DNA from: Sinomonas cyclohexanicum
GTDB taxonomy: Bacteria; Actinomycetota; Actinomycetes; Actinomycetales; Micrococcaceae
NCBI RefSeq assembly: GCF_020886775.1
Contig: NZ_AP024525.1
Coordinates: 3,100,001 to 3,164,000 of the forward strand
Length of the DNA: 64,000 bases
Direction: 5' to 3'
The translations under genes and the position numbers were made by a program. The notes beneath the pieces are model-generated. The model was not told the DNA's origin, made no database searches, and saw nothing but the letters and a program-made list of their open reading frames with translations. Positions 19,989 through 29,734 of the stretch are shown here, piece by piece (position 1 is the stretch's first letter; each line of letters opens with the position of its first letter).

Positions 19989-20320
19989 TTGGCGTCCTCC
20001 TCGGCGGCCTCAGCCTGGTCAGCCTCAGCCGACTCAGCCTTGGCAGCCTTCTTAGCCGCCTTCTTCGAATCCTTCGTCTCGACGACCACGGGGGCAACGT
20101 CGGCACGGATGCCGAGCTCGCGCTCGCGCAGGATCGTGTAGATGCGGGCGATGTCCTTCTTGACCGCGCGGAGGCGGCCGTGGTTCTCGAGCTGGCCGGT
20201 GGCCGACTGGAAGCGCAGGTTGAACAGCTCTTCCTTGGCCTTCTTGAGCTCCTCGAAGAGGCGCTCGTTGTCCAGCTGGTCGAGCTTCTCAGCCGTCATG
20301 TCCTTCGAACCGACTGCCAT
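19985..20320 (-). CDS. rpmC: 50S ribosomal protein L29 with long C-terminal tail
   Basis: A 111-residue protein. The L29 core ([20 protein letters not shown], then [19 protein letters not shown] and [14 protein letters not shown]) fills the first 72 residues. The last 40 are rich in Lys, Ala and Glu, making it longer than E. coli L29 (63). I chose ATG 20320 (MAVGSKD) as in related actinobacteria; an ATG at 20326 overlapping the rplP stop is also possible. Confidence 0.95.
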
Positions 20321-20322
20321 TC

Positions 20323-20739
20323 TCATTCACCACCTTCGCGGCGCACGATGCGCGCCTTCAACGGGAGCTTGTGGATGGCGAGGCGGAGGGCCTCGCGGGC
20401 CACCTCGTCAGAGACACCGGAGAGCTCGAAGAGCACGCGGCCGGGCTTGACGTTGGCGATCCACCACTCCGGCGAACCCTTACCGGAACCCATGCGGGTC
20501 TCGGCAGGCTTCTTGGTCAGCGGACGGTCCGGGTAGATGTTGATCCACACCTTGCCGCCACGCTTGATGTGACGAGTCATGGCGATACGAGCGGACTCGA
20601 TCTGACGGTTGGTCACGTAGGCAGGCGTGAGGGCCTGGATGCCGTACTCGCCGAAGGTGACCTTGGTGCCACCGGTCGCAGCGCCGGAACGACCCGGGTG
20701 GTGCTGCTTGCGGTGCTTCACACGACGCGGGATAAGCAT
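20323..20739 (-). CDS. rplP: 50S ribosomal protein L16
   Basis: A 138-residue protein near the peptidyl-transferase and A-site tRNA region. It has [19 protein letters not shown], the signature region [16 protein letters not shown] and [17 protein letters not shown]. It abuts rpsC directly (stop of rpsC at 20740). Confidence 0.97.
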
Positions 20740-21567
20740 TTAAGCCTCTCCTCCTTCTGCTGCCGGGGCAGCGGTCTCAGCGGCCGGGGCAGCAGCCTCG
20801 GCCGGAGCCTGCTGCTGGCGGTCGCCAGACGGACGACGGCGGCGCTCGCCACCGGGGCGACCCGGACGGTCGCCACGGTCGCCACGGCCGCGGGACGGAG
20901 CGGCAGCGGCCTGGGCCGCGAGCTCCTTGGAGGTCACATCGCCCTTGTAGATCCAGACCTTCACGCCGATGCGGCCGAAGGTGGTCTTGGCCTCGTAGAA
21001 GCCGTAGTCGATGTTCGCGCGGAGCGTGTGCAGCGGCACACGGCCCTCGCGGTAGAACTCCGAACGGGACATCTCGGCGCCGCCGAGGCGACCCGAGCAG
21101 GCGATGCGGATGCCCTTGGCGCCGGCGCGCTGCGCCGACTGCATGGCCTTCTTCATGGCACGGCGGAACGCGACGCGGCTCGAGAGCTGCTCCGCGACGC
21201 CCTGGGCGACGAGCTGGGCCTCGACCTCGGGGTTCTTGACCTCGAGGATGTTTAGCTGGACCTGCTTGCCGGTGAGCTTCTCGAGCTCGCCGCGGATGCG
21301 ATCGGCCTCGGCGCCGCGGCGGCCGATGACGATGCCCGGGCGGGCCGTGTGGATGTCCACGCGGACGCGGTCACGGGTGCGCTCGATCTCGACCTTGGCG
21401 ATGCCTGCGCGCTCCATGCCGTTGGTCATGAGCTGGCGGATCTTGACGTCCTCGCGGACGAAGTCCTTGTAGCGCTGACCGGGCTTGTTGCTGTCGGCAA
21501 ACCAGTGCGAGACGTGGTCGGTGGTGATGCCGAGGCGGAACCCGTGCGGGTTGACCTTCTGTCCCAT
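20740..21567 (-). CDS. rpsC: 30S ribosomal protein S3 with disordered C-terminal tail
   Basis: A 275-residue mRNA-entry protein. It starts [20 protein letters not shown], has the KH domain ([20 protein letters not shown]) and the C-terminal S3 signature around [16 protein letters not shown] and [11 protein letters not shown]. The last 60 residues are an RG/RP-rich stretch followed by Ala/Pro/Glu-rich sequence not found in E. coli S3. Confidence 0.97.
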
Positions 21568-21933
21568 TTAGCGGGCCTCCTCCTTCTCGGGCGTCGCGAC
21601 GACCACGGTGATGTGGCTGGTGCGCTTCTTGATGCGGTAGGCGCGGCCCTGGGCGCGCGGCTGGAACCGCTTCATGGTCGGACCCTCGTCGACGAACGCC
21701 TCAGAGATGTAGAGGTCGCTCTCGTCGAACGCGACACCGTCGCGGTCGGCGAGGACACGGGCGTTGGCCACCGCCGAGGCGAGGACCTTGTACACCGGCT
21801 CCGAAGCCGCCTGCTGGGCGAACTTCAGGATCGCCAGAGCCTCATTCGCCTGCTTGCCACGAACAAGGTTGACGACGCGCCGGGCCTTCATCGGCGTTAC
21901 GCGGATGTGGCGCGCAATTGCCTTGGCTTCCAT
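21568..21933 (-). CDS. rplV: 50S ribosomal protein L22
   Basis: A 121-residue exit-tunnel protein. Markers are [35 protein letters not shown] and the C-terminal [19 protein letters not shown], the hairpin that reaches the tunnel constriction. Standard S10-operon position. Confidence 0.97.
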
Positions 21934-21986
21934 TGCTTTCCTTCTCTTTCTCAGAGCTCAGCGCTGCTGCTGCCTTGCGGCAGTGA

Positions 21987-22268
21987 TCAGCGGCGCTTGC
22001 CCTTCTTGTCGTCCTTCACGTGGCCGCGGAAAGTCCGCGTCGGGGCGAATTCGCCGAGCTTGTGCCCGACCATCGACTCGGTGACGAAGACCGGGATGTG
22101 CTTGCGCCCGTCGTGCACGGCGATCGTGTGCCCGAGCATGTCGGGGACGATCATCGAGCGGCGGGACCAGGTCTTGATGACGTTCTTGGTGCCCTTGTCG
22201 TTTTCCCTGGCGACCTTCACAAAGAGGTGCTGGTCAACGAAAGGACCCTTCTTCAGGCTGCGTGGCAT
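21987..22268 (-). CDS. rpsS: 30S ribosomal protein S19
   Basis: A 93-residue protein of family length, starting [16 protein letters not shown], with [20 protein letters not shown] and the signature [19 protein letters not shown]. It lies between rplB (12 bases) and rplV (53 bases). Confidence 0.97.
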
Positions 22269-22280
22269 GTCTCCAGGCTC

Positions 22281-23120
<840 letters not shown>

Positions 23121-23150
23121 TTACCTGTTCCTCGTTAAAGTGGTCTCCGC

Positions 23151-23459
23151 TCAGGCGAGCGGACCGCCGAAGATGTCGATCGTGCTGCCGTCCTTGAGAG
23201 TGACGATGGCACGCTTGGTGCTCTTGCGCTCTCCCCAGCCGAACTTGGTGCGCTTGCGCTTGCCCGGGCGGTTGAGCGTGTTGATCGAGTCGACCTTGAC
23301 CGAGAAGATGCGCTCGATCGCGATCTTGATCTCGGTCTTGTTCGAGCGGGGGTCCACCAGGAAGGTGTACTTGCCCTCGTCGATCAGGCCGTAGCTCTTC
23401 TCGGAGACGACCGGCGCGAGGATGATGTCGCGCGGATCCTTGTAGCTGGATGCGTTCAC
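23151..23459 (-). CDS. rplW: 50S ribosomal protein L23
   Basis: A 102-residue protein at the tunnel exit, where trigger factor and SRP dock. The core reads [19 protein letters not shown], then [20 protein letters not shown] and [20 protein letters not shown]. The start is GTG 23459, which overlaps the rplD stop as GTGA. As written, the same frame is also open upstream into the 5' part of rplD because of the rplD frameshift; this is not a genuine L4-L23 fusion. Confidence 0.93.
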
Positions 23460-24086
23460 TTGGAAGCCTCCTCGTTCACTGTGCCCTGTGCCTGGGACTT
23501 GGAAGCCACGAACGCGTCGAACGCCGCCTTCGTGAAGACCACGTCGTCGGAGACCAGAACGTCGTACGTGTTGAGCTGGTCGGCGTAGATCGCGTGCACC
23601 TCGGGGAGGTTGCGGAGCGACAGGGCCCCGGCCTCGTCCGCGCGGTCGATCACGACGAGCAGGTTCTTGCGGTCGGAGACCGCACGCAGCGCGGCGATCG
23701 CACCCTTCGTGCTCGGCTTCTCGCCGGCCACGAGGGACTCGAGGACGTGGATGCGGCCGTTGCGGGCACGATCCGACAGGGCGCCACGGAGGGCGGCGGC
23801 CTTCATCTTCTTGGGGGTGCGCTGGCTGTAGTCGCGCGGCACCGGGCCGTGCACGACGCCCACCGGTCATGTGCGGAGCGCGGATCGAACCCTGGCGGGC
23901 GCGGCCCGTGCCCTTCTGCTTGAACGGCTTGCGGCCGGCGCCGGACACCTCGCCGCGGTTCTTCACCTTGTGCGTGCCCTGGCGTGCAGCGGCCAGCTGG
24001 GCGACGACGACCTGGTGCAGCAGCGGGACGTTCGTCTGGACGTCGAAGATCTCGGCGGGGAGATCGACCTTGACAGTGTTAGCCAT
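23456..24086 (-). CDS. rplD: 50S ribosomal protein L4, frameshifted as written
   Basis: L4 is split over two frames. The first frame (24086 down to about 23862) gives the L4 N-terminus to [10 protein letters not shown] (75 residues). The second frame (about 23860 down to the stop at 23456) resumes with [20 protein letters not shown] and runs 134 residues to the end. Family members read TGGGVVHGP across the junction. Restoring two bases at 23858-23864 (for example GGTGGCGGCGTC collapsed to GGTGGGCGTC) rebuilds a normal protein of about 210 residues. L4 is essential in most bacteria and the rest is well conserved, so a 2-base sequencing or assembly deletion is the likeliest cause. A real mutation or programmed shift is the alternative. 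Confidence 0.9.
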
Positions 24087-24090
24087 GAGT

Positions 24091-24741
24091 TCAGGCTCCC
24101 TTCACGGCGGTGCGGACGAGGACGACCGAGCCGCGGGCACCCGGGAGGGCGCCCTTGATGAGGAGCAGCGAGTTCTCGGCATCCACCGCGTGGACGGTGA
24201 GGTTGAGGGTCGTCTGGCGCACGTTGCCCATGCGGCCGGCCATGCGGAGGCCCTTGAAGACGCGGCCCGGGGTGGCGCAGGCACCGATGGAACCGGGCTT
24301 GCGGTGGTTCTTGTGCGCACCGTGGGAGGCACCGACGCCGGAGAAGCCGTGACGCTTCATGACACCGGCGAAGCCCTTGCCCTTGGTGGTGCCGACGATG
24401 TCGATCTTCTGGCCGGCCTCGAAGGTCTCCACGGAGAGCTCCTGGCCCAGCTCATAGGCATCGGCGTCAGCGGTACGGACCTCGACAAGGTGGCGGCGGG
24501 GGGTCACGCCGGCCTTCTCGAAGTGGCCGGTGAGCGGCTTGTTGACCTTGCGCGGGTCAATCTGGCCGTAGCCGATCTGGACCGCGGTGTAGCCATCGGT
24601 CTCGGCGTTGCGCAGCTGGGTGACGACGTTGGAGTCGGCCTTAACGACAGTGACGGGGATGAGCTTGTTGTTCTCGTCCCAGACCTGGGTCATGCCGAGC
24701 TTCGTGCCCAGCAGGCCCTTCACATTGCGGGTAGCGGTCAT
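24091..24741 (-). CDS. rplC: 50S ribosomal protein L3
   Basis: A 216-residue protein that reaches the peptidyl-transferase centre. It has [39 protein letters not shown] and [20 protein letters not shown]. It follows rpsJ by 21 bases and precedes rplD by 4. Confidence 0.97.
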
Positions 24742-24762
24742 AGTTCTCTCAGCACCTCCCTC

Positions 24763-25071
24763 TTAGAGCTTGATTTCGATGTTGACGTCTGCCGGCAGGT
24801 CGAGACGCATGAGCGAGTCGACGGCCTTGGGCGTCGGGTCGATGATGTCGATCAGCCGCTTGTGCGTGCGCATCTCGAAATGCTCGCGGCTGTCCTTGTA
24901 CTTGTGCGGAGAGCGGATGACGCAGTACACGTTCTTCTCCGTGGGCAGCGGGACGGGTCCCACCACCGTTGCGCCTGCGCGCGTGACCGTCTCAACGATC
25001 TTCCGAGCCGAAGTGTCGATGACCTCGTGGTCGTACGACTTCAGCCGGATGCGGATCTTCTGTCCCGCCAT
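24763..25071 (-). CDS. rpsJ: 30S ribosomal protein S10 / NusE
   Basis: A 102-residue protein, first gene of the S10 segment. It also serves as NusE, the NusB/NusG partner in antitermination and transcription-translation coupling. It has [39 protein letters not shown] and [15 protein letters not shown]. The candidate promoter lies 22 bases upstream. Confidence 0.97.
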
Positions 25072-25425
25072 ATCGCCTGATCTCGCTTTCGTCTGTCTAA
25101 CACTGCACTGTTTTTTGTCACTATTTTGTTGGCTGTGGCTGCCGAGGCATTCAAGGTCGAGACCACCACAGGCCGCGCTGCCTGAATCCGGGACTCCCGG
25201 GTTCCTCAGACAGCCGGCCCTCTCCGACCCCCGCGGTCGGGCGTGTCGCGCCGCTGGCGCACACGATCCCCTAGCCTTGTTCGCGAAGGTGGGTCATATT
25301 TGGTCTCCAACTTGGACCCTGCACCCGGCATTATCCGGGTCGGGACACGAAGGAGCGCTTGAACAACCCTTCAAGTGTGCCAGAGATCTGGCCGTGACGC
25401 CAATCGGGCGACTGCCGCCCGCAGA
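25072..25425. other. S10 operon upstream region; no gene seen
   Basis: 354 bases without a supported gene. Near rpsJ lies a candidate promoter (25094-25121). Farther up are a hairpin ACCCGG-CATTAT-CCGGGT (about 25322-25339), which could end the small upstream gene, and an inverted repeat CTTGAA-N6-TTCAAG (25358-25375). Confidence 0.5.
25094..25121 (-). promoter_or_regulatory. Candidate S10 operon promoter
   Basis: On the minus strand GTGACA (25116-25121) and TAGACA (25094-25099) are separated by 16 bases and lie just before rpsJ. GTGACA matches 5 of 6 of the housekeeping -35 consensus; the -10 match is weak. The preceding CACAGCCAACA is shared with the tuf leader. Confidence 0.35.
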
Positions 25426-25551
25426 TCACTCGCCGCGGTTGGAGCGGCGGATCCGGCGGTAGCGCTCGATCTCGTTCTTGAAGTTCTTCCGGATCCAGAA
25501 GTAGCCCGCCACGACGATGGTGATGAGCACGATCACGATGAGCCAGTTCAC
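25426..25551 (-). CDS. Small single-pass membrane protein (41 aa)
   Basis: A 41-residue frame from GTG 25551 to TGA 25426, preceded by GGAAGGAG about 8 bases upstream. Residues 2-19 (NWLIVIVLITIVVAGYFW) form one clear transmembrane helix, followed by a strongly basic, hydrophilic tail (RKNFKNEIERYRRIRRSNR). This positive-inside layout suggests a small inner-membrane protein with a cytoplasmic C-terminus. It lies 64 bases after the 1372-residue membrane protein and may be cotranscribed with it. I do not recognise a family. Confidence 0.65.
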   Translation of the reverse strand: MNWLIVIVLITIVVAGYFWIRKNFKNEIERYRRIRRSNRGE

Positions 25552-25615
25552 GGGCGAAACTCCTTCCCTCCGGACGTCCGAGCGGGCCCCGGCCGGTCCT
25601 GCCGCGGCCCCGCCC

Positions 25616-28600
25616 CTACCCTAGCAGGGTGCTCTTGGGCCGGCGCGCGAGCCACCAGACGGCGGCCGCGATGATCGCGAGGCCGAGGACGGCCAGGAGC
25701 GCGTAGACGTAGGCCCGGACCGACCACAGCACGCAGGCCACCACCCCGGCCGCACCCCAAACCGTGAAGCGCCGCTCGTTCAGCACGACCCCCGCGAGCG
25801 TGAGCACCGCAAACGCCACGAGCAGCCAGACCTGTTGGGCATTGTCTCCCGAGAAGAGGGTCCACAGCCCCGTGAGGCTGAGGAGCCCTGCCGAGCCCTC
25901 GAGCCACGCCCTGCCGAACACGGCGGACCGCCGGACGTAGTAGCGCAGGAGTGCTACGACCGCAGCCAGCACCACGTACCACTGCGCGAGCCAGAATGCG
26001 CTCACCTCGATAGCGTCTGCGAAGATGGCACGCTGCAGGGAGCCAGCGACAACGACGGCCCCGACCTCGACGCCGAGCCGCCGGAACCGGCGGGGCAGCT
26101 CCGCGGCCACTGCGGCGACGAGTGCGGCGGCGAGGTAGGGCAGGACGACGGCTGCGGGCGGCTCCCAGCACGCTACCGCCGAGGCCGCGAGGCCAGCGGC
26201 GGCAGCCCCGAGGAGCGGCCAACGGCGCGCCGGTGCGGCCTCGAGCCTGGCCACCGCTTCGACGCGCTTGCCCCACGTCCCGGGCCAGCGGGCAGACCAC
26301 CGGAGGGCGAGACCCACCGAGGCCGGCACGAGCGTTCCCGCCATGAACTGCACGGGGGTCTGCCACAGGCGGGGCAGGCCGTCCACGAGGTCGCGGGCAA
26401 TGTCGACACCGGCAGGCAGGGCCAGCAGGACACCCATCGGGAACGTGATCGCCACGGTGATCGCGGCACGCCAGACGTAGCCAGCGGCGAGAAGGACGGC
26501 TGCGCAGGACGCGAGGGCCGCACCCAGGACCCACGAGCACTCCGGAACCGCCGCCACAACGGACGACGCCGCGAAGGCCCCCGCACCGGCCGTCCATGCC
26601 CAGCGCCACAGGCCCGCGCTCCGACGTTCAGGCGATTCCCACAGTGCCATGCCCGCAACGTGGGCCGCCGCGATCGCGACGAGCAGGAGCGCGACAGCCT
26701 GGCCCCCGATCAGCGGGGCCGCGAGGAACTGCCCCAAGTGGAACCGGAAGAACGGGCCGAGCGCCACCACTCCGAGCAGGAGTCCCGCGACGCCGACGTA
26801 CCCCGCCGCGGGACGCCCCTTGAGCGTCGCCAGGACGCTCACGACGACGAGGATCGCCTCGAGCACGACGACCCACCGGCCGCCCTCGGGGCCCTGCCGG
26901 GCAAAGGCGAGGTACCCGAGCGGCAGCGCTAGCTGGCCCGCGAGCCCGGTCCAGTACGCGACGTCCTGGAACGGGAGGTCCGAGGCAGTGCGCGTGAGGA
27001 GACGGCGCACCGGGTGCTGGGCCACCAAGGACACGGCGAGCACTACGCTCACCCACGTGTCCGACGCCGTCGCGTCCTGCGCCACGAGCACAGCGAGCGC
27101 CACCGGCAGCGCTCTCGCGGCGACGAGGTGGGCGCCCTTGGAGGCAGTCTGGGGGGCCAGGAACACCATGGAGGCCGAGTACACCGCGAACAGGCCCGCG
27201 AGGATCTCAAGCACCCGCAGGTCGCGCGACGCGGTGAACGCCATCAGGACCAGGGCGGCCGGGGCGACGGCCACCGAGCCCGGCCACGGCCGCAACACCA
27301 CGCCGACGAGGGCAGCCGCGGCGGCGAAGGCGACCACGAGGATGGCCCCCAGCGGCTGGAGCCGGTCCGTCGGCCCGGCGACGTAGCTGATCTCGGCTCC
27401 CGCCGCAAAGGTGAACGGCATAGCGATGGCCAGGACAGCGGCGGCGTCCCCGAAGCTCCACGGCAGGGGCCGTCCCCTGCGTCCACTCAGCAACTCGACC
27501 GCGAGCGGCACCACGATCTGGGCCAGGACCACGGCCGCGAACACGTGCGCGCCCGACACGGGCTGGCCGAGGACGACGGGACGCCAGCCGTCCTCCAGGA
27601 GTTCGCGGAACAGCCCCATCGCCAAGGCCGTGGCAGCGGCCCGCGCGAGCCAGATGTACACCCACCTGCGGAGGCGGACCGGCGAGAGCCATGCGGAGCC
27701 GCCCAGGACGGCAATCACGAGAACCAGCACGGCATTGGACAGCGCGCCCTCCCCGAACCACAGGGACTCGAGGGCAAGGAGCGCGAGCAGCACGTTCGGC
27801 GCGACCTCACCTACGGAGGACACGGGACCAAAGCCGTCCGGCCGGGCAAGGAACAGCCCGGCCCAGAGCGCCCCGGCCCCAGCACACAGGATGAAGACTG
27901 CCGGGCCGAACAGTGGCGAGACGAAGCCACCCGGGCGCGCAGACGAGGGGTCAGCGAGCCCCACGACGGCGACGGCGAGGACGCCCACCGCCACGAGGGT
28001 CCATGCCATCGCCGCCCGCGCGAACTCCGCGTGACGCAGGGCACCGAGGCCGCCCGTCACCGCCAGCGCGACGCCGCGACGCGACGGCGAGCCCGAGCGC
28101 AACGGCGCCGCCCGGGCTCCCGGCCCCGTCGACGGCGGCAGCGCCGCCGACACAACCGCCGGAACCACCAGAAGGGACGCGGCTCGCGCTGCCGCGACGA
28201 AGTGGGGCCTCCGCCACGTCCAGCGAGGCCCGTCCTCCGCCGGTGAGGGCGGCCAGACCGCCCGGGCCGCGAAGTAGAGCAGCCCCTCGACGGCGAGGAA
28301 CGCCAGCGGCCATCGTTCCAGGTCGATGAACGGAAGCACCGCGAACGCGAGGACGGGGAGCCAATTCGTGTGGGCGCCCCAGCGCCACGCCGTGAACTGC
28401 GCCGTGAGGACGAAGGCCGCGACCGCGAGGAACAGTGACCCCTGCGCTGCGGGCACGGAGGCCACCGAGGCGGCGGCCACGAGCACCGCCTGCACGAACA
28501 CGGCGGTGCCCTGCTCCGCGAGGGCGACACGGCGCGACATGCCGAGCTCGTCCTCCCGGCGCCGGCCGAGGACGGCCGAGGCGAGAGTCCCGACCGCCAC

Positions 28601-29734
28601 GGCAAGCACACCCGCAAGGGTCCACGCGGAGCGCTGAGTAGGGCCGAGGGACGGAAGGCCGGCGTCCACCGCCTGCGCCGCGGCGACTGCACTGGCGAGC
28701 ACCGCCGTCGTGCGTGCGCCCCACCATGAGAGCCTGCGTGCCAGCGCGGGGCCGGGGAGGAACGAGGACCCGACGAGGTAGAGGCTCATGGCCGCGACGA
28801 GGGCGGGATACTGCCAGCGGTCCAGGGCGCCCGCCGTGAGCGTCGCGGCCACAAAGGTCGCAGGGACGACGAATGGATGGAGCCGTGCGACGGGCCTCAG
28901 GAAGAGCGGCGGAACCCATCGCGGTTGGAGCGCGGCGATCACGGTGAGCACCGAGGCAACCCCGATGAGCGCGGCGTAGTCGGCCGCGAGGGCACCACTG
29001 AGCACTTCCGTGCCGGACCACGCCGCGGAGAAAACGAAGGTCAGGCTCAGGAAGACGAGGACCCGGCTCTCGATGCGCAGTGCGGCGAAGCCGAACGCGA
29101 CGAGCCCGACCAGGCTCGTGATGAGCCAGGAAAGGTCCGGACGGTGCAGGACCACGATGTCGAGGCCGAGGCCCGCGACGGGCAGCAGCGCCAGGCCTGT
29201 CCCCGCGAAGGCCACGGCCGCCGGGCGCAGCCTCGGGAACCTCGCATGGACCACGAGGCCAGCCGCGTAGAACAGTGCGGTGACACCGACGAGGCCCGTG
29301 AGGCGCACGCCGTCGTCCACGCTGCCGTTCGTGAGGAACAGTGCGGCCGCCGCGACGATCAGGAGCGCGGCAAGGTAGAGCGAGATGTTGGCGCTCTGGA
29401 TCCCGCGCCTCTCCTTTCGGCGAGCGGCCTCCCGCGCGAGCTCCTCCCGCGACTTCGGCGGCGTCTGCACGCGCATAGGGACGGCCGGTGCCGCCGCTTG
29501 TGCTGCCACGGCGCGTGGTGGCGCCAGGATCGGCGCGGGGGCGGCCGCCGGGATCCGCCGTGGCGCTGCCACCGGTGAGACCACCGGCGCGCCCGCCGAA
29601 CGCATGGCCTCGTCCCACCCGATGCGGTGCCCCGCGAGGAATCCCGCGCGGTGCCCCTCGAGATAGCCCTCATGGTGGCCGGCCGCATAACCCGCGTCGT
29701 ACCCGCCGCCCTGTCCCGCTGACATCGTGTCCAC
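25616..29734 (-). CDS. Giant polytopic membrane protein, function unknown (1372 aa)
   Basis: A 1372-residue protein that is almost entirely hydrophobic after residue 110, with dozens of predicted transmembrane stretches such as ISLYLAALLIVAAAALFL and LYLVGSSFLPG. The N-terminus is a soluble Gly/Tyr/His repeat region (YDAGYAAGHHEGYLEGHRAG), then a Pro/Ala linker and a charged SREELAREAARRKERRG segment. This resembles the very large SCO7613/DUF2157-like membrane proteins annotated in other actinobacteria. The relationship is an impression, and no catalytic motif is seen. GTG 29734 has GGAGG about 8 bases upstream; ATG 29725 is the alternative. It stands between tuf and the S10 cluster, co-directional with both. 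Confidence 0.8.
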   Translation of the reverse strand: MDTMSAGQGGGYDAGYAAGHHEGYLEGHRAGFLAGHRIGWDEAMRSAGAPVVSPVAAPRRIPAAAPAPILAPPRAVAAQAAAPAVPMRVQTPPKSREELAREAARRKERRGIQSANISLYLAALLIVAAAALFLTNGSVDDGVRLTGLVGVTALFYAAGLVVHARFPRLRPAAVAFAGTGLALLPVAGLGLDIVVLHRPDLSWLITSLVGLVAFGFAALRIESRVLVFLSLTFVFSAAWSGTEVLSGALAADYAALIGVASVLTVIAALQPRWVPPLFLRPVARLHPFVVPATFVAATLTAGALDRWQYPALVAAMSLYLVGSSFLPGPALARRLSWWGARTTAVLASAVAAAQAVDAGLPSLGPTQRSAWTLAGVLAVAVGTLASAVLGRRREDELGMSRRVALAEQGTAVFVQAVLVAAASVASVPAAQGSLFLAVAAFVLTAQFTAWRWGAHTNWLPVLAFAVLPFIDLERWPLAFLAVEGLLYFAARAVWPPSPAEDGPRWTWRRPHFVAAARAASLLVVPAVVSAALPPSTGPGARAAPLRSGSPSRRGVALAVTGGLGALRHAEFARAAMAWTLVAVGVLAVAVVGLADPSSARPGGFVSPLFGPAVFILCAGAGALWAGLFLARPDGFGPVSSVGEVAPNVLLALLALESLWFGEGALSNAVLVLVIAVLGGSAWLSPVRLRRWVYIWLARAAATALAMGLFRELLEDGWRPVVLGQPVSGAHVFAAVVLAQIVVPLAVELLSGRRGRPLPWSFGDAAAVLAIAMPFTFAAGAEISYVAGPTDRLQPLGAILVVAFAAAAALVGVVLRPWPGSVAVAPAALVLMAFTASRDLRVLEILAGLFAVYSASMVFLAPQTASKGAHLVAARALPVALAVLVAQDATASDTWVSVVLAVSLVAQHPVRRLLTRTASDLPFQDVAYWTGLAGQLALPLGYLAFARQGPEGGRWVVVLEAILVVVSVLATLKGRPAAGYVGVAGLLLGVVALGPFFRFHLGQFLAAPLIGGQAVALLLVAIAAAHVAGMALWESPERRSAGLWRWAWTAGAGAFAASSVVAAVPECSWVLGAALASCAAVLLAAGYVWRAAITVAITFPMGVLLALPAGVDIARDLVDGLPRLWQTPVQFMAGTLVPASVGLALRWSARWPGTWGKRVEAVARLEAAPARRWPLLGAAAAGLAASAVACWEPPAAVVLPYLAAALVAAVAAELPRRFRRLGVEVGAVVVAGSLQRAIFADAIEVSAFWLAQWYVVLAAVVALLRYYVRRSAVFGRAWLEGSAGLLSLTGLWTLFSGDNAQQVWLLVAFAVLTLAGVVLNERRFTVWGAAGVVACVLWSVRAYVYALLAVLGLAIIAAAVWWLARRPKSTLLG

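Follow-up and report, generated by a model that had tools for sequence, protein, structure and literature searches.

The rplD locus of Sinomonas cyclohexanicum raises the question of how a cell could obtain ribosomal protein L4, which is required in most bacteria, from a gene whose deposited sequence passes from one reading frame into another. The window analysed here, 64,000 nucleotides in length, covers positions 3,100,001–3,164,000 of a genome assembled as a single contig of 4,413,566 bases (4.41 Mb), and the coordinates given for rplD and its surroundings are those of the window.

The rplD locus and its reading frames

The gene lies on the minus strand between rplC and rplW in the usual ribosomal cluster, the neighbours having been named by eye. 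The L4 frame opens with the ATG at 24086 and can be followed as far as HMTGG, with codon 76 ending at 23859, while from 23860 the L4 sequence carries on in a different frame until the stop at 23456–23458. The relevant features are the following.

23859..24086, minus strand: rplD part 1, L4 residues 1 to about 76, in frame with the ATG start at 24086
23858..23867, minus strand: the frame change, with 2 bases fewer than in all 14 same-genus genomes, inside a GCC/GGC run
23456..23860, minus strand: rplD part 2, 134 codons and the stop at 23456–23458, in the other frame
23151..24086, minus strand: a mechanical open reading frame of 311 aa, L4 frame 1 followed by rplW (L23)

The original prediction of an L4 split over two frames holds: the Ribosomal_L4 profile of Pfam (PF00573, 190 positions) is matched at positions 1–67 by part 1 (E 3.8e-26) and at positions 71–187 by part 2 (E 8.2e-30), and the genomes of the genus place a gap of two bases between the two. 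Searching solved structures with the first half of the protein returned the L4 chains of known ribosomes (73 sequences).

In the 311-aa open reading frame, the first L4 frame continues out of frame across the remaining part of rplD and enters rplW in the frame proper to that gene; its L23 part was recognised by eye. We saw no sign of this L4–L23 reading frame being a real product, although automatic pipelines might annotate it as a fusion. Adjoining the ribosomal cluster, also on the minus strand, is an open reading frame of 1372 aa (25616–29734), rich in Ala, Leu and Val, which by eye is apparently a large membrane protein. An Rfam scan of window positions 20000–28000 gave no matches.

L4 in related genomes

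Compared with each of the 14 other genomes of the genus, rplD here is two bases short, the gap being placed at 23861 in 12 alignments and at 23860 in the other two, and no further gap occurs over 23780–23940 in any of them. The L4 open frames of these 14 relatives are 211–216 aa long, in agreement with the total of about 210 residues predicted for the repaired gene. It had also been proposed that the missing bases belong at GGTGG[CG]GCGTC. That two are missing agrees with the alignments; the exact letters are not fixed by them, as the relatives carry GGC or GGT at this site and the identity of the two letters cannot be told from sequence alone.

Both halves of the protein resemble those of the relatives, with identities to the L4 of the 14 same-genus genomes of 92–97% for part 1 and 78–89% for part 2. 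Among the best 80 of at least 567 stretches matching the second half, the closest named relatives are Sinomonas cellulolyticus (93%), S. mesophila (83%) and S. gamaensis (79%). Set against the same 14 genomes, amino acids unique to this genome occupy none of 74 positions in the first half (0–1 in the other taxa) and 3 of 129 in the second (0–3 in the other taxa). Given so few unique residues, the lack of an internal stop in the second half and the likeness of both halves to those of relatives, this second half does not appear to be decaying, as would be expected if the event is very recent or if the living cell has undergone none.

In a search of 58 genomes including this one, 56 of the 57 others have a single L4 match without an inner stop; the remaining relative is a fragmented genome in which L4 was not matched. 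Extending the search to 395 genomes of the family, again with this one included, gave an L4 match in 385, which is a single match with E about 1e-60 or better in 384 and two pieces, the better with E 9.2e-30, in this genome only. This family-wide uniqueness is a matter of match counts and E-values, inner stops having been seen for part of the 395 genomes only. Nine of the 10 family genomes without an L4 match are in 160 contigs or more. With a single intact match in 56 of 57 relatives and in 384 of the 394 other family genomes, the break is not due to chance. It is unique among the genomes searched, and it affects a gene found once.

A second copy is the standard reason for a genome to tolerate such a break, and in that case the gene described here could be a pseudogene while another, intact rplD serves the cell. 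Both a Pfam search and a DNA search of the one-contig genome, a scope outside which an unassembled plasmid would fall, found rplD at this locus only. The original prediction had already rated a second copy as less likely, and we now regard it as exceedingly improbable.

Frame changes elsewhere in the assembly

We scanned the window with the predicted genes of four relatives (referred to as G002, G003, G008 and G013) as probes. The rplD break was the only frame change found, and it was detected by all four. When the same test was applied to the corresponding region of the relatives, G002, G003 and G008 gave no frame changes and G013 gave two, each detected with a single relative. With a rated completeness of 99.93% and with rplD as the sole frame change in the window, the error rate of the assembly is not high.

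A wider sample of 864 kb, consisting of the window and a further 800 kb of this genome (G000), was compared with one sister genome, G002. It yielded 11 candidate frame changes here versus 6 in G002. Five of the former and four of the latter (14959, 96710, 2408105 and 3195559) were set aside as over-extended gene starts, and the other two G002 candidates mirror the RNase E and 6-phosphogluconate dehydrogenase (6PGD) breaks of this genome. After this sorting, which involves judgement, credible frame changes number 6 here versus 0 in G002, a small contrast (two-sided p 0.03). Extrapolation gives a load of about 31 frame changes per genome, with a 95% interval of 11–67. The six genes kept are rplD, RNase E/G, 6PGD, a lipoate-ligase-like gene, an MFS transporter and treY.

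Besides rplD, two of these, both outside the window, were followed further. The RNase E/G frame change (G000 2393352) lies near the end of the catalytic domain; no more than profile positions 1–251 of 270 can be read in one frame here, and the domain is whole (1–270) in all 14 same-genus genomes. The full-length 6PGD (G000 2442107) is split into 1–242 and 238–290, and is whole (1–290) in the same 14; shorter 6PGD-like matches are present both here and in the relatives. In DNA alignments with G002, each of the two genes has one extra base in a run of G residues. RNase E is essential in some actinobacteria, and its break is probably another assembly error.

The MFS transporter (168583), the lipoate-ligase-like gene (2324232) and treY (2986404) are based on comparison with G002 alone and are less certain. 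The gene that we take to be treY, resembling maltooligosyltrehalose synthase and assigned by Pfam only to alpha-amylase, changes frame relative to G002 in a variable GC-rich linker and gives no event with G013; here the frame change may be a true difference rather than an error. A further candidate at 3251282 was seen by G013 only and is absent from the events of the comparison with G002 alone.

Over 466 kb, each genome could be tested against two comparators. Five candidates were found in this genome, one of which (rplD) was seen by both comparators; G002 had five, with none seen by both; and G013, which is likewise in long contigs, had six, with three seen by both. The G013 candidates seen by both G000 and G002 include those at C1 3397849 and 3072088–3072237. 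Because G013 also shows candidates, the excess of frame changes is claimed over G002 only and not over every relative.

Explanations for the break

From the comparisons above we think it highly probable that the rplD break is an error in the deposited sequence and that the cell makes a normal, full-length L4. The deposited sequence would lack two bases of the rplD GCC/GGC run which the living cell has, and the intact gene in the cell would then give the complete protein. Small indel errors remaining in the assembly would number a few tens by our estimate, the break being one of them; such errors are common in GC-rich long-read consensus that has not been fully polished. That long reads were used is suggested by the assembly being a single contig. 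What one would look for in an indel error is present at this locus: the break is confined to one genome while relatives are intact (14 of 14 in the genus and 384 of 385 in the family), it sits in a low-complexity, GC-rich run, and further indels affect conserved genes of the same assembly, namely RNase E/G, 6PGD and the three less certain cases. A joint loss of the functions of L4, RNase E and Gnd to indels of 1–2 bases in GC-rich runs is implausible in a growing culture, which points to an imperfectly polished assembly. Counting against an assembly error are the modest error rate and the size of the gap, since the loss of two bases is not the commonest type of error and is less usual than a one-base homopolymer error. 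Consensus errors rather than mutations are thus a strong inference and not a proof, and it is at this strength that the assembly deletion favoured by the original prediction is supported, with other housekeeping genes broken and all 14 relatives intact.

Similar cases have been described. The GeneTack survey (PMC3711429) deals with singleton frame changes that are confirmed by homology and, like the present one, also by Pfam and found in one genome only; its authors expect sequencing error, not true insertion or deletion, to be the cause of such cases. Our case differs from those singletons in that the gene affected encodes a ribosomal protein, is present once and is needed by most bacteria, so that a true mutation is less likely still. 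The Kastor study (PMC12007338) describes contiguous long-read assemblies in which small indels break up conserved genes, as we see; such indels are apparently far rarer in this genome. In programmed or compensatory ribosomal frameshifting, as described in another paper (PMC5009743), two overlapping frames jointly encode one protein, as would be the case for rplD, where we found, unlike in those systems, neither a conserved site nor a stimulator, nor a second broken case in the genus and family genomes searched.

Could the loss of two bases nevertheless be real? That it is, and that L4 is made by efficient frameshifting in codons of its loop or as two chains, seems very improbable to us. Equally improbable is a genuine deletion that arose recently in the sequenced culture, in a mutant or a subpopulation surviving on the full-length L4 that frequent slippage of the ribosome or of RNA polymerase would yield. 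The position would be a favourable one, as the break falls near the tip of the L4 loop, where changes are tolerated. Judging from the sequence, a −2 slip at the junction would restore the L4 length of the family, and a +1 slip at GGG_C would allow the glycine tRNA to re-pair and would give an L4 one glycine short. Against slippage stands the need for L4 in large amounts. Moreover, only three G residues follow one another at the junction; a slippage site often consists of eight or more identical residues or of a pair of shorter runs, according to the GeneTack survey (PMC3711429), in which the frameshift clusters regarded as programmed have conserved motifs. Neither the 14 same-genus genomes nor the family genomes with a match have the shift site conserved: the gap occurs in none of the former, and by match counts no other of the latter has a broken L4. 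The 66 nt downstream of the junction show no unusual fold (z 0.16, in a test of folds free of pseudoknots), and an enlarged anticodon loop was found in none of the four tRNA-Gly genes detected (anticodons GCC twice, UCC and CCC), all of which have loops of 7 bases. The lower rank given to a −2 translational shift in the original prediction is therefore in keeping with the lack of a conserved site, an unusual tRNA or a structure. A literature search returned no papers on frameshifting in rplD. Translational correction of indels is known, mostly from mitochondria (PMC5009743). Any reading in which the deletion is real must, however, also account for the RNase E and 6PGD breaks.

The junction GGG codon is read by tRNA-Gly(CCC), encoded at G000 3784809–3784879, which has a C–C mismatch in its anticodon stem. 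As a candidate suppressor this tRNA was rejected: G003, G008 and G012 share its full-length sequence at 100% identity, and all three have an intact rplD.

It is exceedingly improbable that L4 is produced in two separate chains, joined only on assembly into the ribosome, with translation of the second beginning at the GTG at 23863. This GTG opens the second frame right at the junction, and the cut falls in the loop and not in the globular domain. The loop itself is described in PMC10931766. By eye, however, no Shine–Dalgarno-like stretch is found upstream of the GTG, and the first frame passes the junction without a nearby stop and stays open as far as the end of rplW, so that re-initiation is not set up. 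Among the family genomes with an L4 match, this one alone has two pieces.

An error in the deposited sequence thus remains our preferred explanation, and the split of L4 is very probably not a biological feature. As an error it would matter for annotation only: L4 of this genome will probably be overlooked or labelled a pseudogene, and the taxon may drop out of, or be distorted in, trees built from marker genes that include L4. Similar breaks, a few tens of them (11–67 by extrapolation), may be present elsewhere in the sequence, and for this reason genes that seem to have been lost from this genome should be verified. Were the deletion true, rplD of S. cyclohexanicum would offer a rare example, in a free-living bacterium, of a universal ribosomal protein that is recoded or split.
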